DNA of 45,107 bases from Candidatus Omnitrophota bacterium (GTDB taxonomy: Bacteria; Omnitrophota; Gorgyraeia; Zapsychrales; Fredricksoniimonadaceae). This document shows, piece after piece, positions 1 to 22,156 of this stretch. Each line of letters starts with the position of its first letter. Position 1 is the first letter of the stretch. A model generated the notes under the pieces. That model had not been told where the DNA came from and ran no database searches. It saw only the letters and a program-made list of their open reading frames with translations. The DNA is taken from positions 1 through 45,107 of the forward strand of contig JADFYF010000004.1 of NCBI GenBank assembly GCA_015233165.1, in the 5' to 3' direction. The translations under genes were made by a program, and so were the position numbers.

Positions 1-334
1 AATCCCGTAGAATCTCTTTTGTTTCTTTGAAAACTCCTCCCAACGCGTAAGAAAAATCGCACAAAGCTTTTTTAGGGGTAATCCCCTTAAAACTGTGTTT
101 AATCTCCATTGAAATGTTTTTTGCCATCACAAAGGTCTGGCCTTTTAATTTCTTGATTTTCTGGCTCTTTTTGGCATCCGCATTCTTAACCCAGGAATCC
201 GCCATTTTGTTTGTTCCCGTCGAGAAATTCTTCTTAATTGCCGAAAAAGCTTTCTTAAAAGCACGGGTGGTTTTCGTACCTGTCTTGGTGCTGACTTTTC
301 CTCCTTCTGATAATTCTATTTTCCTATAGACCAT
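1..334 (-). CDS. Basic, Lys/Thr-rich hypothetical protein in the MGC, C-terminus beyond left edge (MVYRKIELSEGGKVSTKTGTKTTRAFKKAFSAIKKNFSTG...FSYALGGVFKETKEILRD...)
   Basis: Open minus-strand frame from ATG at 334 to the window edge; AGGA upstream; in line with the minus-strand operon. Missing from the ORF track because it has no stop in the window. Confidence 0.65.
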   Translation of the reverse strand, partial: MVYRKIELSEGGKVSTKTGTKTTRAFKKAFSAIKKNFSTGTNKMADSWVKNADAKKSQKIKKLKGQTFVMAKNISMEIKHSFKGITPKKALCDFSYALGGVFKETKEILRD

Positions 335-346
335 AATCTATAATCC

Positions 347-1390
347 TTACGATCCTGCCTTTTTAGTTCTTTTAGCCTTAAGAGCCGGTACCGCAGGAGA
401 AACAGTTTCAGAATCCGCTTGAATCTCCTTCTTGGCTTTGGCTTTCACGATCGGTGGTGTTGTCTCCTGTACGGGAGAAACATCCGGTATCGAAACATCA
501 GGCGTCAGTGGAGGCTCCTGTTTTAGAACACCTTTCTTTTTGGTAATCAAACGCGTCGCCTCATCATTTCTTAAGAACTGCGGATTCATTTGATTATCCT
601 TCCATAACTCCTGCCAGCGTTCAACCGCCTTGTCTCGGCTGTTGACAGAGGCGTCGGGATCAAACCCTAAATCGGATCCTGTAATCGCATTTAAGGCATC
701 AATCGCTTCCCTTCTGATTTTGGCATTCTCATTCTTTAATTGAAAAATAAGATAGGTAAAAGCCATGCGGTTACGGATTTTGACTGATTTACGAATAGCG
801 ACCCGGGCAACCCCTTCATCGGGATCATTAATCAATTTAACAATCGCGAACACCTCTGCTTCTGATCCCTCATGATTCAAACAATTCGCAACAAGTCTGC
901 GGATGGAACTTTCAGGATCATTCGTCATGGATAAAATCGCCAAACGCGCTTGGGGTGTATTTAACCGGCCTAAGGAGACAATACCTTTAAGTCGTATTAA
1001 CGGATCCTGTGAATGAATAATCTCAAAATCATCACCCACAGAAACATTGTTCACAACAGCTTTATCCGCCTTATTCTCGGTGACAACGGCCTGCTCCTGT
1101 TGCGACATTTTTTCCGTTGGCGGCACAATCTCCGCTGCGGGTGAGAATTTAGACAGCAATTCCTCCGCTTTCTTTTTCAAATGTTCAAACTCAGGATTTA
1201 CTGGCGGCTTTTCTTCTTTGTGATCACCATCGGTGCTCTCTAAGGAATCCCCATTTAAGGAATGATAACCATTGAGAAAAGACCTGGTAATATCCACCAG
1301 ACCATCCTGAATTTTCTGAGCCTTAGCAAAGGCAGTGCCCGTGGTATAAAAAACCTTTTTGACTATTTTCTTTCTCGAAGATTCGTCCAT
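347..1390 (-). CDS. HEAT-repeat-containing protein, possibly MGC-associated scaffold
   Basis: 347-aa ORF; central helical repeats (DPLIRLKGIVSLGRLNTPQARLAIL.., DPDEGVARVAIRKSV..); N-terminal VKKVFYTTGTAFAKAQKI motif. Confidence 0.8.
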   Translation of the reverse strand: MDESSRKKIVKKVFYTTGTAFAKAQKIQDGLVDITRSFLNGYHSLNGDSLESTDGDHKEEKPPVNPEFEHLKKKAEELLSKFSPAAEIVPPTEKMSQQEQAVVTENKADKAVVNNVSVGDDFEIIHSQDPLIRLKGIVSLGRLNTPQARLAILSMTNDPESSIRRLVANCLNHEGSEAEVFAIVKLINDPDEGVARVAIRKSVKIRNRMAFTYLIFQLKNENAKIRREAIDALNAITGSDLGFDPDASVNSRDKAVERWQELWKDNQMNPQFLRNDEATRLITKKKGVLKQEPPLTPDVSIPDVSPVQETTPPIVKAKAKKEIQADSETVSPAVPALKAKRTKKAGS

Positions 1391-1420
1391 ATCTCATCTC
1401 CCCCCTTTAAGAGGATTTTT

Positions 1421-2434
1421 CTAATTCAACTCACTGTCGGATTGCTTAAAGATTTTAATGGATGGTTTTTCCACCTCTTGCTCTGATTCTAGTATTTGAT
1501 TCTTGGGACATTTCAGCGGATAGGCTCGTTCCAAGGTTAACCTATTGAGTTTTATTAATTTTTGAGTTTTATCCTTATCCGAAGCTGTCTCAAAGGCTTC
1601 ACGAGCCTCCTGTATTTCTGGAGTCTCTTCGATACTGTATTGCAAGGGTTGACCAGAGTCCCCTTTGCTTAAAAGTTCATTAAGCCATTCCATCGGCCCT
1701 GGGGCTTCGATATAAATTTCTGGCTTATTCTTATGAATAGCATCGATTAACTCTTGTGGATTTCTTCCATCCTTCTTGAACTCTTCAATGGAAAACGAAA
1801 AGGCCGTTATTTCTTGATCGGTGAGTAAAGGCTTCTCCTCGACAACCAAGGCCTCTTGATTTTCTATGACAGGAGAGGTCTCAATGACCTCCTCCTTAGG
1901 TTCTTTGACAACAGGAGCTTCTAGCAACACCTCTTCTGTTTCTTGAGGAGCTTCCTGAACAACCTTCTTCATGACGGGGGCTTTGACGGCAACGGGCTTC
2001 TTTTTCTTAATTTCCTTTATTTCCTCTTTAGCGTCTACAACAGCTTCCACTGTCTTTTTAGCGAAGGGCCTTCCTCTTTTTTTGGCTGGGGCAGCAACAG
2101 GTTTTACTTCTTCGACTAAAGAGGACTCCTCGTCTTTAACCTCGAGTTTTTTATTGCTGTGAACGGCGTGTCTTGCCTTTTTGGCATGTTGGGCGCCTTC
2201 AGCAATGGACTGAACCCCTTCCTCAAAAGATTCTGACATTTCACAAAAACTCTTTTTGATGGAATCCCCTGTATGCTTAAACATATCCTCTGTTTTAGAT
2301 ACAGTCTCCTTCCACTCCTTACTCTTGGTGACCTTTCCTAGGTTCTTGACCTTGGCGCAAATAAGTCCTGTGCCATAGGATATGCCCTGGACGATATTTG
2401 TTATGGGATCTGTTTTCTTTTTGATTTTGACCAT
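1421..2434 (-). CDS. Lys/Glu/Val-rich, likely disordered protein with N-terminal SYGTG motif and an AT-hook-like KKRGRP segment
   Basis: ORF 1421..2467; start moved to MVKIKKKTDPITN at 2434; strongly biased composition. Confidence 0.7.
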   Translation of the reverse strand: MVKIKKKTDPITNIVQGISYGTGLICAKVKNLGKVTKSKEWKETVSKTEDMFKHTGDSIKKSFCEMSESFEEGVQSIAEGAQHAKKARHAVHSNKKLEVKDEESSLVEEVKPVAAPAKKRGRPFAKKTVEAVVDAKEEIKEIKKKKPVAVKAPVMKKVVQEAPQETEEVLLEAPVVKEPKEEVIETSPVIENQEALVVEEKPLLTDQEITAFSFSIEEFKKDGRNPQELIDAIHKNKPEIYIEAPGPMEWLNELLSKGDSGQPLQYSIEETPEIQEAREAFETASDKDKTQKLIKLNRLTLERAYPLKCPKNQILESEQEVEKPSIKIFKQSDSELN

Positions 2435-2451
2435 ATGAGTCTCCTTGTTTT

Positions 2452-3102
2452 TTATTGCCCCTGCCAAACAGAAATATTGGCCGCAATATCATTATCTAAT
2501 GCTATATGTCCGCCTTCGCATTCTATCACGTAGGTCGGATACTTCTGATGAAGTTTGATCGTCACTCCTGGGCGTACGCACAAACTTTCAAATCGATGAA
2601 TCTGTTGGTCATTTTGAGATTTCACATACGCAATCCTCGCCGATGTTCCTAATTTCAGCTGGTTTAAAGGAATCACACAATTCAGCGCTGTTTTATCTGA
2701 ACTCTTACAGCAATCCCCCTCGGGAATAGGTAAACCATGCGGGCATTCTTTCGGATGACCCAACAGGGTACAGATGCTGTTGACAAGCTCCAAACTGACA
2801 ATATGTTCAAATTCACAAGCCCCATTTTCAAAATCAGTCCCTAGAACATCATGGAGCAATCTCTCGGCCAATCGATGCGACCGAATTAATTGGCGGGCTT
2901 TTTTCTCACCAGCATCGGACAAATGGATCTCTTTCGCATTGGAACTGATCTCCACAAAACCCTCTTTGGATAACTTGTCCATTAAGGTCGCATCGAAACT
3001 ATCTGTCAAATTACGTTTTAAAGTATTGATAGATGTTTGTCCGGCTTCCTTCATATACCATAATTGTTCCAAATATTCATCGAGGACAAATTTGGTTTTC
3101 AT
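2452..3102 (-). CDS. DtxR/IdeR/MntR-family metal-dependent regulator with C-terminal FeoA/SH3-like domain
   Basis: CEFEHIVSLELVNSICTLLGHPKECPHGLPIPEGDC matches the DtxR-family dimerisation/metal region; start MKTKFVLDEYLEQL overlaps the upstream stop (ATGA). Confidence 0.85.
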   Translation of the reverse strand: MKTKFVLDEYLEQLWYMKEAGQTSINTLKRNLTDSFDATLMDKLSKEGFVEISSNAKEIHLSDAGEKKARQLIRSHRLAERLLHDVLGTDFENGACEFEHIVSLELVNSICTLLGHPKECPHGLPIPEGDCCKSSDKTALNCVIPLNQLKLGTSARIAYVKSQNDQQIHRFESLCVRPGVTIKLHQKYPTYVIECEGGHIALDNDIAANISVWQGQ

Positions 3103-3962
3103 GCGAAGACCTTTCTGAGATTGACCATTAACGCTATATACAGCATAAACGCTAGGACAGATGCTGAAGAAACCATCTTCATGACCATCGCCGATAAACC
3201 TCTTGGACAATTATTGAGCAATATGTCCTGAATAGACGCCAGGATCGTTGAAAGCATGCTCGTAGAAACGTTTAAATTCTGGGTATTAGATATCGACGAT
3301 AATGTAGCCACATCATTCACCCAGGCCAGCCAGGCCGCTCTTTCTTGGGAGGGAATCAACTCAACACGAGAAGGCTTTTCGAATTGGGCCAAACGAACCC
3401 TCCAGCCTTCATTTAAAAGAAGCTCGTCGTCATTTTCAATGAAATTCTCATTCAGTCCTTTGACATAAATCCGGCTTTCAAAATCCGTCACAACAGCTTC
3501 CTTGCCCTTAAGCTTCACCCCAAAACTCGTCCCTCGAACTCCAGCGACGGCTACAGGAGTACGCACCTTAAAATTAGATCCCTTTTCCAGTTTTTCCAAC
3601 TTCAGCATAATCTCACCCTTGTCCATAAAAATACTCGTCTGTTTCTGGATGACATCATTCTCAATAACCACATGAAAATCACATCCGATTCTCACGATAT
3701 CTTTAAGCCCCTCATCACAGGTCACTTCCTCCGATGCTCCATTGCTGGTGGTGATTTTATCCTGAACATTAAGAACCATGCCCACCGTCGGCGTGATCTT
3801 GGCCCCATCACGTTCAATGGACACCTCGCCTGAAAGTCTAACAATGCTCGCCCGATCCTGAGTTTGGTTAAAAATAAAATTAACACCTAAGAAAACAGCG
3901 ACCAGAACGATTAAACCGGCGATCAGGTAAAAATAATTATTAAAATTCCAATCTCGTCCCAT
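3099..3962 (-). CDS. FecR-domain membrane protein
   Basis: N-terminal TM helix, FecR-like core (GEVSIERDGAKITPTVGMVL...VRTPVAVAGVRGTSFGVK), C-terminal hydrophobic segment. Confidence 0.8.
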   Translation of the reverse strand: MGRDWNFNNYFYLIAGLIVLVAVFLGVNFIFNQTQDRASIVRLSGEVSIERDGAKITPTVGMVLNVQDKITTSNGASEEVTCDEGLKDIVRIGCDFHVVIENDVIQKQTSIFMDKGEIMLKLEKLEKGSNFKVRTPVAVAGVRGTSFGVKLKGKEAVVTDFESRIYVKGLNENFIENDDELLLNEGWRVRLAQFEKPSRVELIPSQERAAWLAWVNDVATLSSISNTQNLNVSTSMLSTILASIQDILLNNCPRGLSAMVMKMVSSASVLAFMLYIALMVNLRKVFA

Positions 3963-3983
3963 AGGCTCCCCTTTTTTATACTC

Positions 3984-6107
3984 CTAACCCCTAAACACAA
4001 AAACCAACGCCCAATGCAACAACCCCGCCATCGTAAAGGACACCGTCAGAAACATAATTGACATAATAACAGCCGTCTTGATTCCCATTTCCTTGCTTAA
4101 CGTAATCACGCTGGCAAAACACGGATAAAATGTCGTCGTAATAACGACCGCTACGATCGACTGAATATAATTTAACCCGCCATTTTCAACCATTTTATAA
4201 ATGACCCCCGCGGCGGCCTCCCGTCTGGCAAAAGCCAGAATAAAGATTTCTGTCATATCAGATGGCAATCCCAACCATCCCACCATCAAGGGATTAAGAG
4301 CTTGCCGCATAATCTTTAATAGACCGATATGTTCGGCCGCAAAAAGCCCGACAGCAGAGATAACAAAGATCGGAAGAGCTTCTTTTAAAAACCAGATAAT
4401 CCGATAATACGTCTTGATCGCCACCCCCTTGATGCTCGGAAAACGCATCGGGGGAAGTTGCTGGATGAAATAATTCTTTTTCTCGTCTTTAATAAATAAA
4501 TTCAACGTAAGTCCAGCGCCCACTTCCAGTAATCCTAAGGTCCCAAAGGCGATCAGCAGGGCAACAACTCCAAACTTCCCCAAGATGGCGATATTAATGG
4601 ACAGTTGCACGGAACATGGAATGGCAAAGAGAATCAGGAAATTCGTAATAAACTTCTCCTTATAAGAAGTCAATCCCTTCGTCGTCAAGGTCGCCATGGT
4701 CTTACAGCCAAATCCAAGGACGATGGACGTGATCGCCTGTCCTGTGACACCCACCTTCTCAAAGATCCTTTTAGTCAATACACTAAAATTCGTGATATAG
4801 CCGCTATCTTCAAACAAGCCATAGACAAAAAAGAATACGGAAAGAATCGGCAGCACGGTACAAACAGCATTAAAGACTCCCAACGTTAAGACGCCGTGAT
4901 TCCCAATTAAAAAGTCATTCCAGAACACAGGAAGATGAATAGAAGTAATCCATCTTAGCGTAGGATCGATGAGAAAGTAGTTTAAAGGCTTGTCGGTTAG
5001 TTGCGATGAATTGGTAACACTAAAATACACGATCGCCAAAAATCCCATTAGAATAGGAATTCCCCAAATAGGATGACGACAGGCTTGAGCAAAGTGATTG
5101 GAAAACGGAAGTTCCGTCACCATCTTCTGTTTGGTCACGACCTTGCTACAGATATCCTCGACCCATTCGTGCCGTTTGGTATGAACGTCCTGCTGTATTC
5201 TATCCTTAAGTTGTCGACGGGCCTTACCTATTTCAATACGCGCCTTGTCAACCATCTCCTTGCCATGTTTCTTCTCAAGATAAGCCTCCAGGAAAGGGTC
5301 CATTAATATCAGCAACAAAGCCTTCTTGAATTTAAAAGGCATTTCAAAAGGCAAGGAAGACATTACTTCTAGTAAGGCGCTCTCAATCTTAAAACCATAA
5401 TTGATACGGGCCTTGCTTTTCTTCGCCTTGGAAATGGCTAGTTTAATATCTTCCTTACCCATGCCACGAATGGCAATCGATTCGACAACAGTCACTCCTA
5501 ACAGAGTCTCCAGTTCTTTAGAATTAATGACAATTCCCCGTCGTGTCGATTCATCAATAGCATTAAGTACGATCACAATGGGAGTTTCCAACTCCAAAAG
5601 ATCTGCCGTCAACAAGAGGGATTGTTTATCTTGGAAAGCATCGATGCATTGAACAATAATATCTGGTTTTTCTTCTAGAATTAAATTACGAACGACCACT
5701 TCCTCCTCGGAATGGATATAAAGGCTATGCAAACTGGGGGTATCAATGATTTCATACAGCTGATCCTTATATTTCATTAAGGTCCGTTTAACTTCTATGG
5801 TCGTGCGAGGATAATTGGCCACAATGGTGTATTCACCCGTCAGGTTACTGAAAATCTGACTCTTTCCCGTATTAGGAAGACCGACAAGCGCCACCTTCTT
5901 GACCAAGGTTCCCTTAGGAAGACCATTCTGAGTAACAACGTCTTGAATGCATTCCTTGGAAGAAGGCTTTAGCGGCTTTTGGGCTGGCTTCTTAAAAAAG
6001 TTAAAGAAAGACTTCCTAGGTCTTTTAATAACCTTATCCGCCATGTAATCATGACCGGCCTGGCATTGCTGCTGCTTACCGCAAACCTTGCATTCTATTT
6101 TCCCCAT
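3984..6107 (-). CDS. FeoB-type ferrous iron transporter with N-terminal Cys-rich extension (FeoB-like/Mad-type)
   Basis: G1 GLPNTGKS, switch region, gate regions GFGCKTMATLTTKGL and YPCFASVITLSKEMG; N-terminal CKVCGKQQQC. Confidence 0.9.
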   Translation of the reverse strand: MGKIECKVCGKQQQCQAGHDYMADKVIKRPRKSFFNFFKKPAQKPLKPSSKECIQDVVTQNGLPKGTLVKKVALVGLPNTGKSQIFSNLTGEYTIVANYPRTTIEVKRTLMKYKDQLYEIIDTPSLHSLYIHSEEEVVVRNLILEEKPDIIVQCIDAFQDKQSLLLTADLLELETPIVIVLNAIDESTRRGIVINSKELETLLGVTVVESIAIRGMGKEDIKLAISKAKKSKARINYGFKIESALLEVMSSLPFEMPFKFKKALLLILMDPFLEAYLEKKHGKEMVDKARIEIGKARRQLKDRIQQDVHTKRHEWVEDICSKVVTKQKMVTELPFSNHFAQACRHPIWGIPILMGFLAIVYFSVTNSSQLTDKPLNYFLIDPTLRWITSIHLPVFWNDFLIGNHGVLTLGVFNAVCTVLPILSVFFFVYGLFEDSGYITNFSVLTKRIFEKVGVTGQAITSIVLGFGCKTMATLTTKGLTSYKEKFITNFLILFAIPCSVQLSINIAILGKFGVVALLIAFGTLGLLEVGAGLTLNLFIKDEKKNYFIQQLPPMRFPSIKGVAIKTYYRIIWFLKEALPIFVISAVGLFAAEHIGLLKIMRQALNPLMVGWLGLPSDMTEIFILAFARREAAAGVIYKMVENGGLNYIQSIVAVVITTTFYPCFASVITLSKEMGIKTAVIMSIMFLTVSFTMAGLLHWALVFVFRG

Positions 6108-6910
6108 AACATCCTCGATAAAAGTGTCGATTTCTTGGCAATTGGATGATTCACTTCAAGCAACTTTTCGATTTCATCGTCAGAACGCTGAGCTGTGAAA
6201 TCTTCTTCAACAGCTAAGTCCTCACTTACGTTATGATTCGTCGCTTGAGTCAGAACAGGTTGCTCGATGGTATGCACTCCCACCTCTTGAAGAACAGGTT
6301 CAGGAACAACAGCCTGGGTGGTTACGACGGGAGCTGCTGTTTCTTTAACCTCATTAGATACAAAATATTTCTTTTTAGGATCAATACTGACCTCTTGAAC
6401 ATTAAAATCAAATTTAAACTTGTTTAAGGCAAAGACATTTTGAATCTCAATCCTTAATCTCTTTTCAATGTCACTTAAGACATGATGAACCGACGGGACA
6501 CCATTTAATTGAATGGACACTGGAATCACCAGCCCCTCCTTGTGGTCGTTAATAAAATCGGCCCTAAAATGCGTGACATAAGGATTTTGTGATCCCACCT
6601 GCTCGACGAAATCAATAAGAGTCCTATAAGCAATATTTAAAGACTTCCCATCCTGCTCAATCGACATTGTCTTTGGAACCGGCTTGGTGCGTGCGGCCAA
6701 GAGCAATAAAATGAACCCCAGGAGGATAAAGAATCCGCCTACAATTTGAATCGTTTTAAATGCCGCCGGCATACTCAGAAGTTGATTGTAAAGAGTCACC
6801 AGCTTCGAGGGCGATAATTTACCGACGCCAACAGATAGAAATACCAAACCTTCAAACATACAAATAGCAGCTGCAAACATTAAAAATATTTTCATCAAGA
6901 CTGTTTTCAT
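6095..6910 (-). CDS. Two-TM membrane protein, possibly AmaP/Asp23-like
   Basis: Two N-terminal TM segments followed by a soluble domain resembling AmaP organisation; acidic C-terminal tail. Confidence 0.55.
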   Translation of the reverse strand: MKTVLMKIFLMFAAAICMFEGLVFLSVGVGKLSPSKLVTLYNQLLSMPAAFKTIQIVGGFFILLGFILLLLAARTKPVPKTMSIEQDGKSLNIAYRTLIDFVEQVGSQNPYVTHFRADFINDHKEGLVIPVSIQLNGVPSVHHVLSDIEKRLRIEIQNVFALNKFKFDFNVQEVSIDPKKKYFVSNEVKETAAPVVTTQAVVPEPVLQEVGVHTIEQPVLTQATNHNVSEDLAVEEDFTAQRSDDEIEKLLEVNHPIAKKSTLLSRMLWGK

Positions 6911-6924
6911 AGGTCGGCTCTCCT

Positions 6925-7269
6925 TTAAAGATTAAAAAGTAATTCTCGACAAGACTCAGGAGTCTGAAGCTTGCCTGAGTCACGCTCGATACGATGAATC
7001 AAATTTTTAGCGGTTTCTTTTAACTCTGCTTTAACCACCTCTTGTTTTGTCCCACCTGATTTAAGTTTAATGATTAAACCCATCACACCCATCATTTCAA
7101 AAAAAGAAGCCTGGCTGCAAATCGTTTGAATATCGTGTTTCAAGATCATCTCCACGTCGAATTTCTTTAATTCTTCCGCCATCGCAGACCCTTTATCGAG
7201 ACGTTCCATTCCTTGATGGGCCGCGTCATTTAAAATCTCGGATAGCTTATGTCTAAGTGGGGCAATCAT
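6925..7269 (-). CDS. Small hypothetical protein of the MGC
   Basis: 114-aa ORF contiguous with neighbours (start at 7269 abuts upstream stop). Confidence 0.65.
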   Translation of the reverse strand: MIAPLRHKLSEILNDAAHQGMERLDKGSAMAEELKKFDVEMILKHDIQTICSQASFFEMMGVMGLIIKLKSGGTKQEVVKAELKETAKNLIHRIERDSGKLQTPESCRELLFNL

Positions 7270-7952: not shown

Positions 7953-7964
7953 TGGTCACCCACC

Positions 7965-8144: not shown

Positions 8145-8159
8145 GTGACTCTCCTTTTG

Positions 8160-9170
8160 TTAAACAAAAAACAACTTAATCGCAAACACAATCAAAATAA
8201 TGATAAACAGGTATAACGTGATTTTTGTATCCAGCTTACTGGCAATCCGTGCACCGACCTGGGCTCCAAGGATAACGCCGAGCCCCATCCACATCGCTTC
8301 CCCGTACATGACATTTCCTAAGAAGATATGCGGCGTCAGGGCAATCGCGCAGGTCATCAGGGTCACAAAATGGCTCGTCGCTGTAGCAATATGCGTCGGA
8401 TAGAATAATAAGAAGAGTAAAATAGGGACCTGAAAGACGCCGCCGCCAATGCCTAAAAATCCGCAGAAGAATCCTAAAAGAAAATTCATGGAAATACCCA
8501 TGCGGTCATTCGCATAAAAGTCATACTTGATGCCAAAATTGTCCATAAACCGGACCCGACGATACCCTTCCTCCTTGGCTTGTTTCAACATTTTTTGCTT
8601 TTGTTCCGTGGTCTTATCCAGCTTGCCTAAACTAAAGATCGTGTAACCAGCGAGAAAAATCAGAAAGACGCCAAAAATAATATTAAAGAAGGTCAGATTG
8701 ACCAAATGATGGATATAACTGGAAATAAACGCGCCAGGCATCGCTGCGAGGGTAAATTTGATACCCCCTTTATAATCAATACGCTTTTGCATGGCATAAC
8801 CGGCGCAACCCGAGGCGGCATTTAGAAGAACAATAAACAAGGATGTAGCGACGAGGATTTCATTTTCCCATCCATAGAAGAAAACCAAGATGGGTAGAAT
8901 AAGGGGGCCTCCTCCAATACCGACAATCGTTCCATAGCATCCAATGGCAAATCCGATCAGAGTTAACAACCAAGAAGGCTGATCACCCGCCACCGTTGGA
9001 GGAATGACAAAAGGCAGCTGGAATTTAGCCGCCGGATTACTAAACATGGCCATCAGCGCTAAAATGGATATCGCAATTCCCAACGCCACATTGGTGTACC
9101 CCATCCAGTTGGATGTCTTCTTGATTTCAGTTTCCGTGTGTTCATTGTGCATATTCGTAGATTCTTTCAT
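8160..9170 (-). CDS. TauE/SafE-family permease, MamO C-terminal-domain-like
   Basis: Duplicated TauE glycine-rich motifs (GTIVGIGGGPLILPILVFF; GFLGIGGGVFQVPILLFL); start moved to MKESTNMHNEH because the upstream part translates an intergenic repeat. Confidence 0.85.
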   Translation of the reverse strand: MKESTNMHNEHTETEIKKTSNWMGYTNVALGIAISILALMAMFSNPAAKFQLPFVIPPTVAGDQPSWLLTLIGFAIGCYGTIVGIGGGPLILPILVFFYGWENEILVATSLFIVLLNAASGCAGYAMQKRIDYKGGIKFTLAAMPGAFISSYIHHLVNLTFFNIIFGVFLIFLAGYTIFSLGKLDKTTEQKQKMLKQAKEEGYRRVRFMDNFGIKYDFYANDRMGISMNFLLGFFCGFLGIGGGVFQVPILLFLLFYPTHIATATSHFVTLMTCAIALTPHIFLGNVMYGEAMWMGLGVILGAQVGARIASKLDTKITLYLFIIILIVFAIKLFFV

Positions 9171-9185
9171 GGTTTCTCTTTTTTT

Positions 9186-9260
9186 GTCATTCCCGCGAAG
9201 GCGGGAATCCAGGGTTGGCGCTAACCTCTGGACCCCCGATAAAAACATTCGGGGGTGACA
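9186..9260. repeat. Intergenic palindromic repeat family 1, copy A (inverted relative to B and C)
   Basis: GTCATTCCCGCGAAGGCGGGAATCCAGG...CTCTGGACCCCCGATAAAAACATTCGGGGGTGACA. Confidence 0.85.
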
Positions 9261-9269: not shown

Positions 9270-11084
9270 TTACGGCTTCATACTTAAAATAATAATATAT
9301 ATCGACGACAAAATAAGAATCATAATGGCCGTGGGAATTCCTCGACGGCTGTAACTGGCAAACGTCAAACCTTCTTGCAGCTTCCCATCCACCCTGGCCG
9401 GATAAAGGTCCTCCACCAAGGTTTGAGAAATCACTCCGGCACTAGCTCCTGAAATACAAGCACAAGCCCCGGCAATGGATCCTATATTGATGGCCCACCA
9501 AATCACATCCGTAAAATCGGCATATCCTGAGCTAATGACAATCGGAACAAAGAACGCCGTCGCTGGTCCCGCATTCATGAAGGCCGTAAAAATGGCGGAT
9601 ATCCACATCAACAGCAGAAAATATCCCACCTGATTGCCCATGGACATCGCGGCTAAGATATCCGAAACAATCTTGATAAGCCCCGAGTAAAGACATCCCC
9701 CGACGATAATAAACAAAGCTACAAAGAATAAGATGTCCGTAAAACTAATCTTCTTGATGACATCCTTGGCTTTTGAATTTTCAAGAGCCAGAAGAATAAA
9801 ACCACCCCCCATCGCAATGGGCGCTAAATGCACCTTAAAAAAAGGCAGGACGAGAAAGGCCACAATGACAGAACCCAGGACGAAGAGCACTCTCTTGATG
9901 GCAGGCCAGTCCATTTTAATGCTATGGATATCTTCTTCAATCTTTTGAAGAAATATTTTCTCATTCGTCGGGGATTTAACTTTTTGAAAATGGCGGAATT
10001 CGAAGTACCACATATACCAAAGGAAAACGACCAAACAAATGGTGCAAATGGGTCCCATGTAGAGAATGAAATCAATAAAACTAAGACCAGCACTGGTCGC
10101 CATCAGCATATTTGAGAAATCCCCAATCGGGGTGATATTTCCGCCGATAGCCGACGAAATGACTTCGGAAATAACAACAGGAATAGGATCAAAATGAAGT
10201 CCCCTGGCCACATAAATGGTAATAGGAACAACGATCAAGATAATTGAAATATTATTCATAAAGGCGGACGTAATCGCTGTTAACACGCACAAGGCAAAAA
10301 TGATCTTAATTTTGTCGCCCTTCATACTTAAAACCATTTTCTTGGCCAGATAGTCAAAGAACTTTAAATCCTCGAGAAAGATGGCAAAAATGCTCATTCC
10401 TACGAGCACAAAGATAGGACTCATATGAATCGCATCAAAGGCCTCGCTTTGGTTATAAAAACCAAAGGCAGAACCAGCAATCAGCATCAGAACAGCACCT
10501 AAGGTCACGCAGACGGTGCGATTGAAGAAATTTAAGAACAGCATGGTAAAGGTAATGACCACAATGATGAGACTTACAAAAACAGGCATCCCACGAGCAT
10601 CAAAAATATCAACGCCAGCCTCAATGGGAATCTTTCCAGAGACAGTCAAATTCTTACCATTACGTGAGATCAGAAAACTGATATTGTCCCCGGGTTGAAT
10701 ATTGGACATCAGATACGCGAAATGATTAGCTGAATCCACATTCTGTTTATTAATCTGAAGAATGACGTCACCACGTCTGATATCAATGAGTCTTCTGGCA
10801 GCCCCGGTTGCTGGACTGTTAACAAGAACTCCTGCCGCATAGGGAAGATTGAAATCCCTGGCAATCGTAGGATTCACACTTAAGACATCAAATGAAAGGG
10901 CGCAGCTACCCCCCGAGGTCTGGACAAGACGATTAGCGCTTTGATGGGGCATATTCTTTGTATCTAAAAACAACGCCGCCATGATGACAATAACGATACC
11001 CGCCAACAAAGCCTCGATAAAAGGAAAATTCTTAGGTTTTCTTTCTTTGGCTTGAAGCGCTAAATTTTTAAGATCTACGGCCAT
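9270..11084 (-). CDS. MamN-like ArsB/NhaD-type ion permease with inserted/fused PDZ domain
   Basis: TM, then PDZ (ARDFNLPYAAGVLVNSPATGAARRLIDIRRGDVILQINKQNV), then about 10 TM permease core with NNISIILIVVP and MNAGPATAFFVPI. Confidence 0.85.
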   Translation of the reverse strand: MAVDLKNLALQAKERKPKNFPFIEALLAGIVIVIMAALFLDTKNMPHQSANRLVQTSGGSCALSFDVLSVNPTIARDFNLPYAAGVLVNSPATGAARRLIDIRRGDVILQINKQNVDSANHFAYLMSNIQPGDNISFLISRNGKNLTVSGKIPIEAGVDIFDARGMPVFVSLIIVVITFTMLFLNFFNRTVCVTLGAVLMLIAGSAFGFYNQSEAFDAIHMSPIFVLVGMSIFAIFLEDLKFFDYLAKKMVLSMKGDKIKIIFALCVLTAITSAFMNNISIILIVVPITIYVARGLHFDPIPVVISEVISSAIGGNITPIGDFSNMLMATSAGLSFIDFILYMGPICTICLVVFLWYMWYFEFRHFQKVKSPTNEKIFLQKIEEDIHSIKMDWPAIKRVLFVLGSVIVAFLVLPFFKVHLAPIAMGGGFILLALENSKAKDVIKKISFTDILFFVALFIIVGGCLYSGLIKIVSDILAAMSMGNQVGYFLLLMWISAIFTAFMNAGPATAFFVPIVISSGYADFTDVIWWAINIGSIAGACACISGASAGVISQTLVEDLYPARVDGKLQEGLTFASYSRRGIPTAIMILILSSIYIIILSMKP

Positions 11085-13944: not shown

Positions 13945-13949
13945 TTCAA

Positions 13950-14840: not shown

Positions 14841-15118
14841 CCTTCATCTTCCTCAAATAAGACTTCTTCCTTCTCCGACGCGCTTTCTTCTAATTTCTGC
14901 TTCTTCTTACGCTCTCTATGGATTAGGGTGATCACCCAAAACGCATTCGATGCTCCTAAGACATAAGACGCAAGAATAATGTAAATCAAACCAAAATGAC
15001 GCCCCTTAAACATAGGAATCCAAATAGGAACCGGGTCAATATTTTCAAAGACAAAAAAGACCATCAGGATCAGAAAAAGAAGGAAAAAAATAATTTTGAT
15101 AACTGTTGGTGCTCGCAT
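14837..15118 (-). CDS. LapA-domain small membrane protein, MamL-like
   Basis: Two TM helices, VFFVFENIDPVPIWIPMFKG...LIYIILASYVLGASNAFWVI then basic/acidic tail; ATGA overlap with mamM. Confidence 0.7.
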   Translation of the reverse strand: MRAPTVIKIIFFLLFLILMVFFVFENIDPVPIWIPMFKGRHFGLIYIILASYVLGASNAFWVITLIHRERKKKQKLEESASEKEEVLFEEDEG

Positions 15119-15125
15119 ATCGCCC

Positions 15126-16337
15126 CTAATTCATCATCGCCACGCTTTTTAAAATCACGTGACAGGTATTACACTTGCCGCGGTCTTCGTGCGGCGGAAT
15201 AGCGCCTTTAATGATCGGTGGTGGAGATGGCAAAATATCTCCCGCATCTATCGGAAGCTGACCACCCGTGACCATAATAATGTGACACACCGTACAGGCC
15301 TTACCCCTTGAGCGATGCGGACTGATCGCGCCTGGTTTAATAGGCTGAGCGGATTCATTTTGTGAGAAACCAAGGGCCTTGGTTGATGATATGATATAAT
15401 CCAACAATCGTCCTCGACGATTAACATATATCTTCGCCTGAAGCCTGTTTCTGACTCTTCGGGTCGCTTCCGTAAACGCTTCGATATCCGGCGTGGCATA
15501 CCCATCAACCCCTATCACCATATCCCCCGCCAAGACACCGGATTCCGCGGATTCCAACGATATTTCATCGACGAGAATCCCCTTTGTTTTAGGGTCAATA
15601 TTAAATTCTTTAGCTAGTTCTGGAACCAGGGGGATGACTTCCATTCCCAGCCAATGTCCCTCGACCAGTTCCTTTTGAGCGGCTCCTTGTTCCTTAGGAG
15701 TTGGAAGTTGACTCGCCTGTGGTGCCATATTAACGCTAGGTCCACCCATCCCAACGCCGGTCTCTGCTGTTTCTCCAGGAAGACGGTTACCAAAGGCTAT
15801 TTGTTGAGGACGGCTTCCCATTCTCATATCCAAAGCAATGGGGCTCATATGACCACCCGTCACGGCTGGAGCATGAGTCACGGGGGTATCTGCAATCCCA
15901 GCCCCGAGCATTTTCTTAAAATCATCATGAAGATTCTTTTTATCTTTTAAAGTCAGATACAAAGGCTGTCCATTGCGCATGACATCTAAAAGAGCCCCCT
16001 TATCCAAGGTGATCCCCTTGGTTGCTTTTAAAAATTCAGAAATATTTTTTACCTTCTTATTATTAATAGCCTTTAACAAATCTCCCCCACGCAGTCCAGA
16101 GCTATACGAGGAGTCCTCACACCAATTGACAACAACACCCTTTTCATCCTTAGGGACATTGAATTCCATAGCAATTGTCGGAGTCAGATTACTCACCGTC
16201 ATCCCCGCCCATTCCGCATCACCAGCGCCGATGTGCATAAGCGCGGCAATGCAAAACAACCCCAAAATGGAGAGTACCAAGATAAGAAGGAATTTTTGCC
16301 TATTTCTCTTTTTATAGTCATCCAATTGCTCAAGCAC
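15126..16337 (-). CDS. mamP: Magnetosome protein MamP: two PDZ domains plus two magnetochrome (CXXCH) motifs
   Basis: PDZ cores GLRGGDLLKAINNKKV and GVLAGDMVIGVDGYATP; GAISPHRSRGKACTVCH and GAIPPHEDRGKCNTCH. Confidence 0.88.
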   Translation of the reverse strand: MLEQLDDYKKRNRQKFLLILVLSILGLFCIAALMHIGAGDAEWAGMTVSNLTPTIAMEFNVPKDEKGVVVNWCEDSSYSSGLRGGDLLKAINNKKVKNISEFLKATKGITLDKGALLDVMRNGQPLYLTLKDKKNLHDDFKKMLGAGIADTPVTHAPAVTGGHMSPIALDMRMGSRPQQIAFGNRLPGETAETGVGMGGPSVNMAPQASQLPTPKEQGAAQKELVEGHWLGMEVIPLVPELAKEFNIDPKTKGILVDEISLESAESGVLAGDMVIGVDGYATPDIEAFTEATRRVRNRLQAKIYVNRRGRLLDYIISSTKALGFSQNESAQPIKPGAISPHRSRGKACTVCHIIMVTGGQLPIDAGDILPSPPPIIKGAIPPHEDRGKCNTCHVILKSVAMMN

Positions 16338-16343
16338 AATGGG

Positions 16344-16625
16344 TTACTCCGCTTTTTTTTGGGCCACTTCAGGTTGTTCAACAGGTTCAAGTTCTACACG
16401 TTCCATCGCTGTATTGCATTCTTTACAGACCCATAACTGTCTTTTGGCACCCATCATGTACAATCCCATCAACAAAAGCGGAATTCCTAAAACAGGACCG
16501 ATCCAAAAGAAAATCGCGAAGATACCACCTATGACGAGAAAGCCTCCGAGTTTTCTACTAAAACGAGGCCCTGAATACAGCTGCATCTGACCATTACATA
16601 AATTACAAATCACCGTTTTTGCCAT
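16344..16625 (-). CDS. Small two-TM protein with CxxC pairs at both ends (zinc-ribbon-like)
   Basis: CNLC...two TM helices...CKEC; contiguous with mamP. Confidence 0.7.
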   Translation of the reverse strand: MAKTVICNLCNGQMQLYSGPRFSRKLGGFLVIGGIFAIFFWIGPVLGIPLLLMGLYMMGAKRQLWVCKECNTAMERVELEPVEQPEVAQKKAE

Positions 16626-16638
16626 AAATCACCTTTCC

Positions 16639-16806
16639 TTATTTTTCCTTTTTATCGTCGATACCTATCCCTGTACTACTACCTTTCGTTGCGCATCCAC
16701 ATTTTTCTAATTTTGAACAGTTCTTATTAAGACCTGAGCAGACCATCCCAACAGCAGCTGCTACCCCAAGAACCCCTACTAATCCAAACAAGCAAATCGG
16801 TTCCAT
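16639..16806 (-). CDS. 55-aa single-TM Cys-containing peptide (MEPICLFGLVGVLGVAAAVGMVCSGLNKNCSKLEKCGCATKGSSTGIGIDDKKEK)
   Basis: Open frame below ORF cutoff filling the gap between 16625 and 16821; AGGAGAATC upstream of ATG. Confidence 0.7.
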   Translation of the reverse strand: MEPICLFGLVGVLGVAAAVGMVCSGLNKNCSKLEKCGCATKGSSTGIGIDDKKEK

Positions 16807-16820
16807 ATGATTCTCCTTTT

Positions 16821-18203
16821 TTACCTAACGGCTCTTCTGCCAACACCAACACGCAATGGATTCTGATCCTGAGCCATGTTATTGTTCCACATCATTTGAT
16901 TATTAGCAGCCGCCGCTTGGGCATTCTGAGTTGTTGTCGGTGTATCTATAATCTGATGACAGCTGACGCAGTTCCCTCGAAAGGCATGCGGCATAGTCGC
17001 GGTACTAGAAATAGGCGGCGCATTACTGATAGGCATCTGAGCCGCAATCGGTGAAAATCCTTGCCCATTATTCATATTCGCTTGAGGATATTGAGAGGCT
17101 GGGTATTGACTAGGCGGACTATAACCTTGTGCTCCACCGACGGGAATATATTGTACGGGTGCATAAGGAACATTGGTAACCGCTTGTTGCGCTAAAGCAG
17201 CCTGTTGCTGGGCGATGGCGGCTTGCTGAGCTAATGCCGCTTGTTGATTCATCGCTGCTTGCTGATTCATGGCTGCCTGCTGTTGAGCGGCTGCTTGCTG
17301 GGCCAATGCCGCTTGTTGCTGCGCAACAGCTTGCTGCGCCAATGCCGCCTGTTGCTGCGCAGCGGCCAGCTCCCAGGTAATGTTGCCTTGCTGTTGCTGA
17401 GGCATAACAGCGGCGGCCTGAGTTGGAAGAGGACAAAGGCCTTGTTGTCCATTAAAAGCAATCTGGGTTGTCGGATTCGTTCTTCTTAAAGTATCCGCAT
17501 CAGGTAATCCTAAAGCCACCTGCCCTAAATTCTGAGCAGGCAAGGGACAATAATTTCCACGACCCTGCAACATGGGATAAACTGGTCCCATATACGTCGG
17601 TGCCATACCCCAGGCGGCTCCTTGTGCCTGTGGCGGCATCTGAACAGCCCATCCTGCGGGTTGTGTTTGCACCGGTTGTACTGGAGTTGGATTTGGAATA
17701 GTGTCAGGAGTAGGCGTTGAAGATATCTTGGCTTGACGATAAAGGGTGATCACTTTTTTAGCCTGTCCTGTATAGCCTCCAAAGGTGCGAATACCAAACT
17801 GCATGAGAATGTTATAGCACTGTTGATCAATATTACCGACGATAACAGCCTCTTCTCCCTTACCAGCAATTAAATAAGCAATCTGTGCGTTGGGTTCTAG
17901 ACCACGATAGGGATTCTTGACCGCCTCAACCAGTTTCCCTGACAAAGGATCAACGACTAAGAAATAAACAGCATCCTGTAAGGTAGGAGCTACATTAGCC
18001 CTCAAGCTTGATCCATCAGCAGCAATCACAATTTTTCCGCAGGCTGGATTGCCTTTAGGCGCTTGATTGGCTGGAGAAAAAATGGCATAGAGTCCCGCTA
18101 AAAAGACAAGAACAATGGCACCAAAAATAAAATAGGCATTTAAATCAATATTCTTTAAACGCACGCTGAAATCTTCTGTTGGTCTTGCTTTTTTGATAGC
18201 CAT
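16821..18203 (-). CDS. Chimeric protein: TM anchor, NifX/NifB-like dinitrogenase-cofactor domain, Ala/Gln repeat, single magnetochrome motif
   Basis: CGKIVIAADGSSLRANVAPTLQDAVYFLVVD...QQCYNILMQFGIRTFGGYTGQAKKVITLY; AQQQAAL repeats; MPHAFRGNCVSCH. Confidence 0.85.
   Translation of the reverse strand: MAIKKARPTEDFSVRLKNIDLNAYFIFGAIVLVFLAGLYAIFSPANQAPKGNPACGKIVIAADGSSLRANVAPTLQDAVYFLVVDPLSGKLVEAVKNPYRGLEPNAQIAYLIAGKGEEAVIVGNIDQQCYNILMQFGIRTFGGYTGQAKKVITLYRQAKISSTPTPDTIPNPTPVQPVQTQPAGWAVQMPPQAQGAAWGMAPTYMGPVYPMLQGRGNYCPLPAQNLGQVALGLPDADTLRRTNPTTQIAFNGQQGLCPLPTQAAAVMPQQQQGNITWELAAAQQQAALAQQAVAQQQAALAQQAAAQQQAAMNQQAAMNQQAALAQQAAIAQQQAALAQQAVTNVPYAPVQYIPVGGAQGYSPPSQYPASQYPQANMNNGQGFSPIAAQMPISNAPPISSTATMPHAFRGNCVSCHQIIDTPTTTQNAQAAAANNQMMWNNNMAQDQNPLRVGVGRRAVR
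17179..17371. repeat. Ala/Gln heptad-like coding repeat within the NifX-magnetochrome gene
   Basis: Encodes AAAQQQAALAQQAVAQQQAALAQQAAAQQQAAMNQQAAMNQQAALAQQAAIAQQQAALAQQAV. Confidence 0.85.
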
Positions 18204-18233
18204 AGGATTGTCCTTTAGGTTTTTTGATGCCTT

Positions 18234-18869
18234 TTAAAAAGTCCTGGTATTGTTTGCGTTATTCGTCGTGTTATTTCCACTGAAAATTGGACCGTAAGGA
18301 AAGGCTGGTCCAACAATGGGGGAACCCATCTGCCAGCTTCCTTTATTAGGTCCCATCAAAGGGCCGTATTGATACTCAAAGGGAATCGTTAAATAGGTCA
18401 CCTTCTTATCCCGGTAAATCTCGAGGAGGATTCCATCCATATATTTGACATTATTAGCCACATCGACGAAGCTTGTAATACTGTTGACAGGTTTACGGCC
18501 TATAGAAACAATGACATCCCCTGTCTTAACCCCATACTTCTTGGCGATATCCCGTCCTTCATTGAGAACAAACATACCTTTGACTTTTCGTGACAGCTTA
18601 AAATCTTTACGAAGACTACGATTAACAGGGATAACCTCCATACCGATCCAGGTCATGCTGTCGCCTGGTTCAAAGGCCATGGCGCCCGTCGGTTTAGCTT
18701 CCACCTTTTCCGGCCACATTTCTAAAGAAGACATGATCCAGCAAACAGCGATGACTAAAAAAAGAATCATGCCAATTAATAGGATGGGTTCTTTACGCGC
18801 GAAATTTCCTAGTTTCGAGCCGCTATTGTTAGAATGACTTGTATGGTGGGAATGGTTGTGCGTTTTCAT
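18234..18869 (-). CDS. Membrane-anchored PDZ protein with His-rich N-terminus (MamP/MamE-like)
   Basis: MKTHNHSHHTSHSNN..., TM, WIGMEVIPVNRSLRKDF..., KKYGVKTGDVIVSIGRKPVNSITSFVDV. Confidence 0.8.
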   Translation of the reverse strand: MKTHNHSHHTSHSNNSGSKLGNFARKEPILLIGMILFLVIAVCWIMSSLEMWPEKVEAKPTGAMAFEPGDSMTWIGMEVIPVNRSLRKDFKLSRKVKGMFVLNEGRDIAKKYGVKTGDVIVSIGRKPVNSITSFVDVANNVKYMDGILLEIYRDKKVTYLTIPFEYQYGPLMGPNKGSWQMGSPIVGPAFPYGPIFSGNNTTNNANNTRTF

Positions 18870-20242
18870 TACATGAGCCTCACTAAGAGTTCGTTAATTT
18901 GACCATTTCTTAAGATGTGTATATTCACATTGTCCCCCGCGTGAAAATGAGAAACAACAGCTCTCATATCCTCGGCGGAAGAAATACGAACTCCGGCGAT
19001 ACCGGTAATGATATCCCCTCTTTTAATCCCCGCTAAACTAGCCGGCAACTCGTCCATGACACGATTCACTAAAACCCCATCGCCGGGTTGAATATTGAAT
19101 TGCTTGGCGATCACATCATTGATAGGCATCACTTCAAGACCAAAATGGACAGGGGCGGGCGCATCAGGCACGAAATTCGTTGGAGGTAGTGGTTGCATCA
19201 CTAATCCTCTTTGATCTAAAGGTACCGCAAAATTTTTCTTTAAAGCCTGGGATAGGAAATTCTTGCAATCATTAATAGGAATGGCAAAACCTGTACCGCT
19301 AAAAACCCCCGTCGGAGCATAAATGGCTGTATTGATCCCGATCACCTCTCCTTTTAAATTCACTAAAGGACCACCGGAAGATCCATGGTTAATCGGCGCA
19401 TCCGTCTGGAAAAGGTTCTCGTAGCGTACGTTTTCAATCATAATGGACTTGCGGATACCGCTGATAATTCCACTGGTCACCGTCTGTTCAATGCCAAAAG
19501 GGCTTCCCACAGCGACGACATAATCACCAATCTGAGTAAAACTCGAATCCCCTATCCTCACTTCAGGAAACGGACCATCGGCCCTAACCTTTAGGAGAGC
19601 CAAATCCATCGAAGGCTCGCTGGCAATAATATCTGCACGAAGATCTGTGGTCGTACCTCCCCCGTTCCAAATCGTGACAACAACATCTGTCGCATCCCTA
19701 GTCACATGATAATTCGTCAGCACATATCCACGATCATCCACAAAAATACCAGCGCCTACATTCTCAAAACCTTTGTTGTCGACAAATTTATCAATGGTTC
19801 CTTTAAAGGGGGGCACAAATTGGAAATTATCCGGATTCACATTCTGATTAACAGGTGCTTGAGGCAGACGACTGGCATGAATATCGCAAACGGAAGGCAA
19901 AATCATGTTCACAGCATCTTTTAAGTTATTCTGAAACCGGCTGTCTGTAATATTCGCATTCATTGTTCCCGCCACAAGCTGCATACCGCCGTTAGGTGTT
20001 GCCTTGGTAATAGCAGCGGGTTGAAGATTAGGCTGATACGCCGCCTGCGTCACCGCACCGGGGAATCTGGGTTCACTCATCTTCGGTGGAAGAGGTTTAT
20101 TCAAAGATTCGTGCTCTGCCCCCTTGATAATCTCTTCCTTCTTCATGACAATCCAGAAAACAAACATCACCGTGGTCACAACTAATCCAGCGATCCAGGG
20201 TCCTAGAGGTTTTCTGCAAAATCCTTCGTCTGTGTTTTCCAT
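18869..20242 (-). CDS. mamE: Magnetosome serine protease MamE (HtrA/DegP-type, C-terminal PDZ; no CXXCH)
   Basis: NYHV, MDLALLKV, HGSSGGPL catalytic triad motifs; TM anchor; PDZ LAGIKRGDIITGIAGVRISS. Confidence 0.88.
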   Translation of the reverse strand: MENTDEGFCRKPLGPWIAGLVVTTVMFVFWIVMKKEEIIKGAEHESLNKPLPPKMSEPRFPGAVTQAAYQPNLQPAAITKATPNGGMQLVAGTMNANITDSRFQNNLKDAVNMILPSVCDIHASRLPQAPVNQNVNPDNFQFVPPFKGTIDKFVDNKGFENVGAGIFVDDRGYVLTNYHVTRDATDVVVTIWNGGGTTTDLRADIIASEPSMDLALLKVRADGPFPEVRIGDSSFTQIGDYVVAVGSPFGIEQTVTSGIISGIRKSIMIENVRYENLFQTDAPINHGSSGGPLVNLKGEVIGINTAIYAPTGVFSGTGFAIPINDCKNFLSQALKKNFAVPLDQRGLVMQPLPPTNFVPDAPAPVHFGLEVMPINDVIAKQFNIQPGDGVLVNRVMDELPASLAGIKRGDIITGIAGVRISSAEDMRAVVSHFHAGDNVNIHILRNGQINELLVRLM

Positions 20243-20264
20243 AACTTTCGACCTATTTTTCCTG

Positions 20265-20355
20265 TGTCATCCCCGAATGCTTTAGTCGGGGATCCAGGCC
20301 TGCCGGCAGGCAGGGTTGGCTAAACTTCTAGATTCCCGCCTTCGCGGGAATGACA
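20265..20355. repeat. Intergenic palindromic repeat family 1, copy C, with extra internal CCTGCCGGCAGG palindrome
   Basis: TGTCATCCCCGAATGCTTTAGTCGGGGATCCAGGCCTGCCGGCAGGCAGG...GATTCCCGCCTTCGCGGGAATGACA. Confidence 0.85.
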
Positions 20356-20366
20356 TTAAATCAAAA

Positions 20367-20606
20367 CTAAAATGTTGATACCGGGTTTGGCTCTGTTGCT
20401 CCATTGGCTCCCTGAACATTAACAGCTGTATTAGCCTCAGGAGGAGCCTGAACCGTGACCGCTCTTTTCATATGCGTTTTATGATGCTTAGAACTGCCAC
20501 CCTCTCGAAATTCCCAAAAAATACCAAGTAAAATAACAATACAGACGACGAAGATGATTAAAAAGCCGGCCCAAGGATCAAGACATTTTTCGCTATTTCC
20601 AATCAT
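20367..20606 (-). CDS. 79-aa single-TM hypothetical protein of the MGC
   Basis: DPWAGFLIIFVVCIVILLGIFWEFREGG; between mamE and mamI. Confidence 0.65.
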   Translation of the reverse strand: MIGNSEKCLDPWAGFLIIFVVCIVILLGIFWEFREGGSSKHHKTHMKRAVTVQAPPEANTAVNVQGANGATEPNPVSTF

Positions 20607-20622
20607 AAATCAGCCTCGTTGG

Positions 20623-20796
20623 TTACTTCTTACCTTTATTCAAGTGTTTAAATCCCGTATTCAACGCAATTAACCCGCCGATCAAAAGAAACAGCGGAAT
20701 AGAACCTCGTAAAAAATCACCAAAATTATCCCACCAACCAATAATCCCGAAGACTCCTAAAACTGCAGCGATAATACCGCCAATAATATGTGCCAT
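20623..20796 (-). CDS. mamI: Magnetosome membrane protein MamI
   Basis: 57 aa (MAHIIGGIIAAVLGVFGIIGWWDNFGDFLRGSIPLFLLIGGLIALNTGFKHLNKGKK): two TM segments, WW and FLRG..P pattern typical of MamI; not in ORF track. Confidence 0.85.
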   Translation of the reverse strand: MAHIIGGIIAAVLGVFGIIGWWDNFGDFLRGSIPLFLLIGGLIALNTGFKHLNKGKK

Positions 20797-20801
20797 AGAA
20801 C

Positions 20802-21422
20802 TTATCCTTTCCTTGTTTTTTTAACGTCGCGTTTATAATATTTTTTAGGGGCTGGCGGATTAGACAACTGCCCGATTTTCGCCACCAGTCGTCCGGAATT
20901 ATAAAAAACCTTCTTTAAGATTCCATTGACACTCACTTCATTGTCTTGTGTCTCTGCTTCATTGTCAGTAGCCGCTATCTCTTGCTGACGCTTCATGAAT
21001 TTCTTTTCCTGAGGATGGTGTTTGGCCAAATAATCACAGCTTAAACAATCCCCAGGGCACTCACGCTTTAAAGACCCGTACTGTTCAACCGCTAAGAAAC
21101 ATAAATTCATTTTCTTCTTAAAAACAATGCACTTATTGCAATCATGCGTTCCGCAGGAAGTGATTTCGTTGGACTCCCAACAATTAACAGAAACGGTTTT
21201 AGTCGTTTCTGTAGTAACAGGTTTTAGAGTATTCGTTGATTTGATTTGTTTAAGAGCGGATAAAACAACAGTCTTAGGAATTCTTTGATGTCCCCCAAGA
21301 GTTGAAGCGGATTGAAGCTTACCTTCCTTGATCCAATTGAGAACCGTAAAACGTGTCACATTAAGAAATTTGGAGGCTTGGGCCGTTGTTAAATAATCGT
21401 TGTGTCGGATGAAGTAGGACAT
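20802..21422 (-). CDS. MerR/excisionase-type HTH protein with Cys-rich core and C-terminal FYNSG motif (paralogue 1)
   Basis: YLTTAQASKFLNVTRFTVLNWIKEGKLQSASTLGGHQRIP; CWESNEITSCGTHDCNKC...CFLAVEQYGSLKRECPGDCLSC; start moved to MSYFIRHNDY by paralogue alignment. Confidence 0.85.
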   Translation of the reverse strand: MSYFIRHNDYLTTAQASKFLNVTRFTVLNWIKEGKLQSASTLGGHQRIPKTVVLSALKQIKSTNTLKPVTTETTKTVSVNCWESNEITSCGTHDCNKCIVFKKKMNLCFLAVEQYGSLKRECPGDCLSCDYLAKHHPQEKKFMKRQQEIAATDNEAETQDNEVSVNGILKKVFYNSGRLVAKIGQLSNPPAPKKYYKRDVKKTRKG

Positions 21423-21595
21423 GCTCTTTAAATATTCCCAATTGATTTGTAAGTGAATGAATTCTATCAATGGGTCAAGAAAAAAACAAAAAATATGAAG
21501 CTGCTGTAAGGAAAGTTGAAAATGTTGAATTTATTTTTGAGGATTGTTGAATATGTAAACGAAGAATTACCGACGAGGAATGAAAAAACGCTGCT

Positions 21596-22156
21596 TTAGA
21601 ATTGTTTCTTAATGGAACCTACTAAACGGCCAGAATTGTAAAAAACTTTTTTCAATAAACCCTGAACAGATTTTTTATTTGTTCCATGATTCTGAAATTT
21701 AGCATTTCCTTTAAGCATCATGCGTTGCATCGCTTTTTTTTCTTGAGGATAATGATTAGCTAAATACGAACAATTTAAACAATCATGGGCGCACTCACGT
21801 TTTAATGAACCATACGATCCAATAGCTAAAAAACAACGATTCAACTTCTTCTTAAAAACAAGACACTTATTACAATTATGCGTTCCACAGGACGTAATTT
21901 CTTCAGACTCCCAGCAATTGACAACCGTATCCGTTTTCTTCTGGGGGGGGGCTATTTTGATACGCTTGGTTGTTTGAATCTGCTTTAAAGCCGATAAAAC
22001 AACAGCCCTGGGAATACGTTGATGCCCACCAAAGGTTGAAGCGGATTGTAGCTTACCTTCTTTGATCCAATTTAAAATTGTAAAACGTGTAACATTGAGG
22101 AATTTTGAGGCTTCTGCGGTCGTTAAGTAATCGTTATGTCTAACAAATGCAGGCAT
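21596..22156 (-). CDS. MerR/excisionase-type HTH protein with Cys-rich core and C-terminal FYNSG motif (paralogue 2)
   Basis: Strong co-linear similarity to 20802..21422 along the whole length. Confidence 0.85.
   Translation of the reverse strand: MPAFVRHNDYLTTAEASKFLNVTRFTILNWIKEGKLQSASTFGGHQRIPRAVVLSALKQIQTTKRIKIAPPQKKTDTVVNCWESEEITSCGTHNCNKCLVFKKKLNRCFLAIGSYGSLKRECAHDCLNCSYLANHYPQEKKAMQRMMLKGNAKFQNHGTNKKSVQGLLKKVFYNSGRLVGSIKKQF

Follow-up and report, generated by a model that had tools for sequence, protein, structure and literature searches.

A conserved terminal helix of magnetosome gene clusters in Omnitrophota and its possible role in docking

Short amphipathic helices at a protein terminus target FtsA and MinD to the membrane, and RacA joins a MerR-type helix-turn-helix (HTH) domain to a partner-binding region. 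In bacterial microcompartments, encapsulation peptides of the PduP and PduL type are amphipathic terminal helices of 15-20 residues that are found, with a flexible linker, on unrelated proteins of one organelle cluster, their cargoes being lumen enzymes that bind shell proteins (PMC11157265). In Solidesulfovibrio (Desulfovibrio) magneticus RS-1, an interaction network of Mad20, 23, 25, 26, MamK and Mad28, which comprises the HEAT protein Mad23, coiled-coil Mads and actin-like proteins, assembles and positions the magnetosome chain (PMC12748827). Here we describe a recurring helix of about 20 residues at the ends of proteins encoded in a magnetosome gene cluster of a Candidatus Omnitrophota bacterium. 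The window, i.e. the whole stretch of DNA that was analysed (45,107 nucleotides), is one whole contig (JADFYF010000004.1) of an incomplete genome (GCA_015233165.1; 2.29 Mb in 187 contigs) and encodes homologues of MamE, MamP, MamQ, MamA, MamB, MamM, MamN and MamI.

The helix is predicted to be amphipathic and reads roughly φφxxφ[sφ][FY]x[s]Gxφφ[AGS]xφ (φ, hydrophobic; s, small). Relative to the glycine (position 0), an aromatic residue stands at -3 ([FY] and G were fixed by the search pattern in the table of motif columns), and small residues occupy -1 in 77% and +4 in ~79% of the family-weighted sequences. Hydrophobic residues at -9, -8, -5, +2, +3 and +6 follow a spacing of 3-4, and positions -7, -6, +1, +7 and +8 are polar. 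Six families carry the motif. It is C-terminal in the HTH proteins (F1), the protein at the left edge of the window (F3), a small Lys-rich protein encoded before a ParA-like gene (F5) and small proteins encoded beside actin-like genes (F6), where the protein ends 10-29 residues past the glycine. It is N-terminal in the KE-rich proteins (F2) and in the N-terminal module of the HEAT protein (F4), where the glycine is residue 18-45.

A sequence-only reading of the window had proposed a shared FY-x-[ST]-G peptide, with a targeting or docking role, at the ends of five unrelated proteins. Each of the five peptides was confirmed on the minus strand, at or near a protein end (Table 1). The literal pattern holds for the HEAT copy and for both HTH copies, whereas the KE-rich protein has SYGTG and the left-edge protein SYALG. 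The five carriers are likewise not all unrelated: the two HTH proteins are paralogues with 67% identity and the N-termini of the KE-rich and HEAT proteins share a domain of ~70 residues, so that the window holds three lineages that are independent in sequence and the phylum holds six families. As a definition of the motif, the literal pattern had to be abandoned, because the genome (2.29 Mb) contains it, as a DNA pattern, at 107 places and the reversed control pattern at 159, so that the bare five-residue core carries no signal alone. Judged by sequence comparison, the terminal motif of ~20 residues is nevertheless real, well above chance and larger than the core first noted.

The conservation of the motif was most apparent in the HTH family. 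Genome comparisons were made within Omnitrophota, with phylum searches covering 392 genomes; joined contig stretches of relatives were used for gene neighbourhoods, several genomes being incomplete and gene starts being inferred. Homologues of HTH protein 2 occur in 17 of the 392 genomes, and a scan of the species collection returned homologues of the HTH protein from Candidatus Omnitrophota only. The motif is present in 20/20 F1 orthologues, including all five that were held out of the first profile, and absent from all 11 HTH paralogues that have the signature GGHxR[IVL] in the loci compared. F1 members adjoining mamI all end in the same helix, while their middle varies between a Cys-rich domain and a short linker of unrelated sequence; in the F1 alignment (A7) the linker is unalignable and S-G is invariant. 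A profile of the 22-residue F1 end gave strong matches in 14 of the 392 genomes (E <= 1.1e-7), followed by a gap to about 1e-3. In all 14 a MamI match lies less than 2 kb away on the same contig, and 12 of them also hold strong matches to the KE-rich protein (E <= 2e-5). The MamI family NF040963 was rejected as a marker of magnetotactic genomes: it has matches below its cut-off in 149/392 genomes and is therefore not specific here, so MamI was used as a neighbour only. Within its own genome the full motif is not equally frequent in proteins at large, the two HTH proteins being the only strong scorers and the HEAT N-terminus the next best. Neither outcome that would have refuted the sequence-only reading, an equal frequency in other proteins or a lack of conservation among orthologues, was observed within Omnitrophota.

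Structure prediction is consistent with a helix. In the AlphaFold model of HTH protein 2 the terminal helix spans residues 164-185, and in that of the KE-rich protein a helix spans residues 10-30, with a predicted local distance difference test score (pLDDT) of 86-88 over residues 11-30. Foldseek with the F2 model returned no match below E 0.7, short coiled-coil peptides (E > 1) were the only matches when PDB sequences were searched with a profile of the motif, and Pfam at its cut-offs gave no match for F2, F3, F5, F6 or the stand-alone F4.

The relationship between families was supported by profiles built from one set of families and scored on another. The profile of the C-terminal families (F1, F3, F5 and F6), built from other genomes, placed the five window copies at ranks 1-5 among 52 window genes, including the N-terminal copies of the KE-rich and HEAT proteins. 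Conversely, the profile of the N-terminal families (F2 and F4), also built without window sequences, ranked the KE-rich protein first, the HEAT protein second, HTH protein 1 third and HTH protein 2 fourth of 52, followed by a gap from 24.3 to 9.1 bits. Single-family profiles were weaker, and F5 alone did not rank the window copies high. When all alignment windows of one family were compared with all those of another (82-145 each, window sequences removed), the motif segment was among the top three in 28 of the 30 directed comparisons. In nine of the ten pairs among F1 to F5, the best alignment from blind full-length hhalign coincided with the motif register, with P mostly weak (0.002 to 0.9) except for F2-F4; the F2-F4 and F2-F3 pairs beat all controls of both partners, and F1-F4 and F4-F5 beat all controls of F4. 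A strict regular expression applied to the termini of 1169 open reading frames (ORFs) recovered 41 family members and six other proteins, where shuffled sequences predict 3.6 matches; these six include another small carrier protein, encoded beside an actin-like gene.

Several observations weigh against the docking proposal set out below. Without window sequences, some family pairs are weak (F1-F5, p = 0.22; F1-F2, p = 0.12), and when 80 control families from the same contigs were aligned, 14-42% of the best alignments took in the motif segment, which makes this segment in part a generic attractor. Membership of F5 and F6 is post hoc, as it was the profile that led to these families. AlphaFold confidence is low for the tail of F1 (pLDDT about 50), and the F2 model was made from a single sequence, without an alignment. 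A separate explanation is that the motif is a chance likeness of amphipathic ends in Lys-rich proteins, chosen by eye, for which the lack of enrichment of the five-residue core and the attraction of alignments from unrelated families could both be cited. We consider this explanation scarcely credible, since it is contradicted by the ranking across families and genomes, by the register test and by the held-out orthologues.

The remaining families show the same helix in varied surroundings. The KE-rich family has 17 members in relatives, whose N-terminal helix usually reads SYGTG, and all 13 homologues found for the left-edge protein, seven of them in the joined stretches, keep [FY]xxG at the C-terminus. 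F5 directly precedes the ParA-like gene and ends in N.VC[FY]WAG[ST] or close to it, and F6 consists of small motif-bearing proteins next to actin-like genes. Newly found members bridge the families, among them a protein of the pre-ParA type with NKALFWAGKQF in G189 and a member of the left-edge family with AAYSAGKASATLKR in G329. In G168, genes for the KE-rich, HEAT, left-edge, second HEAT and pre-ParA proteins, ParA and two actin-like proteins form a single run. F4 is a separate gene beside a HEAT gene in G319 and is fused to HEAT repeats in the window. In the joined G319 stretch (within L057; 12497-13057 and 10441-12444) the separate small F4 protein adjoins a longer HEAT/coiled-coil protein, and the window HEAT protein looks like a fusion that includes this small protein.

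Common descent alone, by which these ends would stem from a duplicated and fused ancestral small protein and be similar without a shared present-day role, draws on the ~70-residue domain of the F2 and F4 N-termini (hhalign P = 4e-6 over 72 columns), the paralogy of HTH proteins 1 and 2 and the F4-HEAT fusion in the window. We judge it very unlikely as a full account, because the helix is kept where its flanks are lost, as in the F1 linker and the middle of F5, which argues for continued selection on the helix.

Two further observations concern the modular make-up of these proteins. In the left-edge family, the N-terminal half (KKSMTGIGxxxSxSAERVADIIL) is similar to the end of the N-terminal domain of the KE-rich and HEAT proteins (VKKSTKDMGESFKAGMESV), like two modules in swapped order. 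A second short module, KKLIxLLGExMYxLxxSQxVRFLYTS, is common to the N-termini of HEAT and coiled-coil proteins in L057/L032 (G319:C111:12000-18700), L064/L063 (G131) and L067 (G168:C11).

Could the helix simply bind lipid? As a membrane-targeting amphipathic helix in the style of FtsA and MinD, it would lie in a lipid surface and need no protein receptor. Its terminal position and amphipathic character would suit this, as would the strongly cationic copies in F1, F2, F4 and F6, with a mean net charge over 18 residues of +2.5 to +3.7 (approximate for F2). However, a net positive charge is not found in all copies, the mean being slightly negative in F5 (-1.2) and neutral in F3 (0.1, an approximate value). 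Unlike the helices of FtsA and MinD, moreover, the motif has a conserved glycine and small residues, and simple lipid-binding helices do not need this common set of aromatic, Gly and small residues. We rate membrane targeting as a less likely explanation.

A homotypic oligomerisation helix seems to us no more probable. Here each protein would self-associate through a small-xxx-small (GxxxA/G) face, without a common hub. The frequent small residue at +4 would fit, and the RS-1 chain-organisation proteins tested all self-interact in bacterial two-hybrid assays (PMC12748827). Yet F2 departs from the pattern by having mostly R or K at +4, and self-association leaves unexplained why the same helix runs across six families of one cluster while the HTH paralogues are without it.

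The motif, its conservation, its terminal position, its predicted helicity, its restriction to magnetosome loci and the HEAT fusion are directly supported. We give an even chance to the proposal that it is a terminal docking helix, which would gather its carriers on one receptor or scaffold of the machinery that organises magnetosomes, with docking at the magnetosome itself or at this organising complex. In favour of a common partner we count the terminal position of the helix, its conservation separately from the flanks, its lack of a fixed charge and its occurrence on a range of proteins whose genes lie next to DNA-binding, ParA-like, actin-like and HEAT genes. The helix would insert its aromatic and small-residue face into a common groove, either in one receptor or by packing with its own copies. 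BldC-like DNA-binding proteins, Lys/Glu-rich and HEAT scaffolds, and small basic proteins beside ParA-like and actin-like genes would be the carriers, so that proteins touching DNA, proteins touching filaments and scaffold proteins could be gathered at the magnetosome chain. The sequence-only suggestion of a short shared docking or targeting peptide agrees with a segment that is conserved in orthologues where the rest diverges, lies within about 45 residues of the end and is predicted to be helical.

Among described systems, the encapsulation peptides of microcompartments would be the best functional analogy. As in those peptides, an amphipathic terminal helix of 15-20 residues is common to otherwise unrelated proteins of one cluster (F2 and F4 being partly homologous). 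Instead of lumen enzymes, however, the carriers here comprise DNA-binding proteins, scaffold proteins and small basic proteins, and the organelle is lipid-bounded; the fixed aromatic-x-small-Gly core is a further, specific difference. No microcompartment shell protein was found among the window proteins scanned (part of the ORFs), and the loci of relatives show mam, HEAT, ParA-like and actin-like genes. The RS-1 network is comparable in that HEAT and coiled-coil proteins are encoded with actin-like proteins in a magnetosome cluster, although the word 'motif' is absent from the text that describes it (PMC12748827). The window HEAT protein has HEAT repeats within a cluster of mam genes (Table 1) and is, by virtue of these repeats, a putative Mad23-like protein. 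For F1, the likeness to BldC, RacA and Xis-type proteins is limited to the HTH part. Both HTH proteins score above the TIGR01764 cut-off of 28.8 bits (39.9 and 42.8 bits), and the best Foldseek match of the HTH protein 2 model is BldC (6ama, E 1.2e-3), with RacA (5i44) among the next. F1 differs from all of these in its extra terminal helix of the magnetosome cluster and, often, a Cys-rich middle.

Table 1 Motif copies and their carrier genes in the window.
Feature	Position	Strand	Sequence or evidence
Motif copy, F3 left-edge protein, C-terminal part	8..67	-	ALCDFSYALGGVFKETKEIL
Left-edge small Lys-rich protein (F3), truncated by contig end	2..334	-	
Motif copy, F4, N-terminus of HEAT protein	1307..1366	-	IVKKVFYTTGTAFAKAQKIQ
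HEAT-repeat protein, N-terminal F4 module and HEAT repeats	347..1390	-	Pfam HEAT_2 1.6e-12
Motif copy, F2, N-terminus of KE-rich protein	2336..2395	-	IVQGISYGTGLICAKVKNLG
KE-rich protein (F2)	1421..2434	-	Start at ATG 2434, by orthologues
Motif copy, F1, C-terminus of HTH protein 1	20862..20921	-	ILKKVFYNSGRLVAKIGQLS
HTH protein 1 (MerR-like), BldC/excisionase-type, Cys-rich region	20802..21470	-	TIGR01764 3.9e-10, HTH_17 1.3e-8
Motif copy, F1, extreme C-terminus of HTH protein 2	21599..21658	-	LLKKVFYNSGRLVGSIKKQF
HTH protein 2 (MerR-like), BldC/excisionase-type, paralogue of HTH protein 1	21596..22156	-	
mamI	20626..20796	-	NF040963 6.2e-15; neighbours HTH genes in all 14 motif genomes

Two other features of the window concern the magnetosome cluster at large. 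At 8160-9248 and 9270-11084, a MamN-like transporter that carries an extra PDZ-like region at its N-terminus adjoins a membrane protein with a match to the C-terminal part of MamO. The cluster also includes an iron-dependent repressor of the DtxR type that has a FeoA domain (2452-3210), near a FeoB-like gene (3984-6107).

The presence of one helix on these carriers suggests that the HEAT and filament proteins share an assembly with the DNA-binding proteins. A bolder and rather doubtful extension of the docking proposal is that the helix serves as an address for the magnetosome chain, with one receptor on the magnetosome surface or on the cytoskeleton reading the same helix on a DNA-binding protein, on scaffolds and on partners of a ParA-type ATPase and of actin-like filaments. 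If so, the nucleoid and the filaments would be tied to the organelle through one interchangeable plug. The finding bears on how non-membrane proteins are recruited to magnetosomes in deep-branching magnetotactic bacteria, and a helix common to six families would offer a handle on this process, as a fusion tag of 25 residues, as bait for the receptor and as a signature for magnetosome-associated proteins in uncultured genomes.

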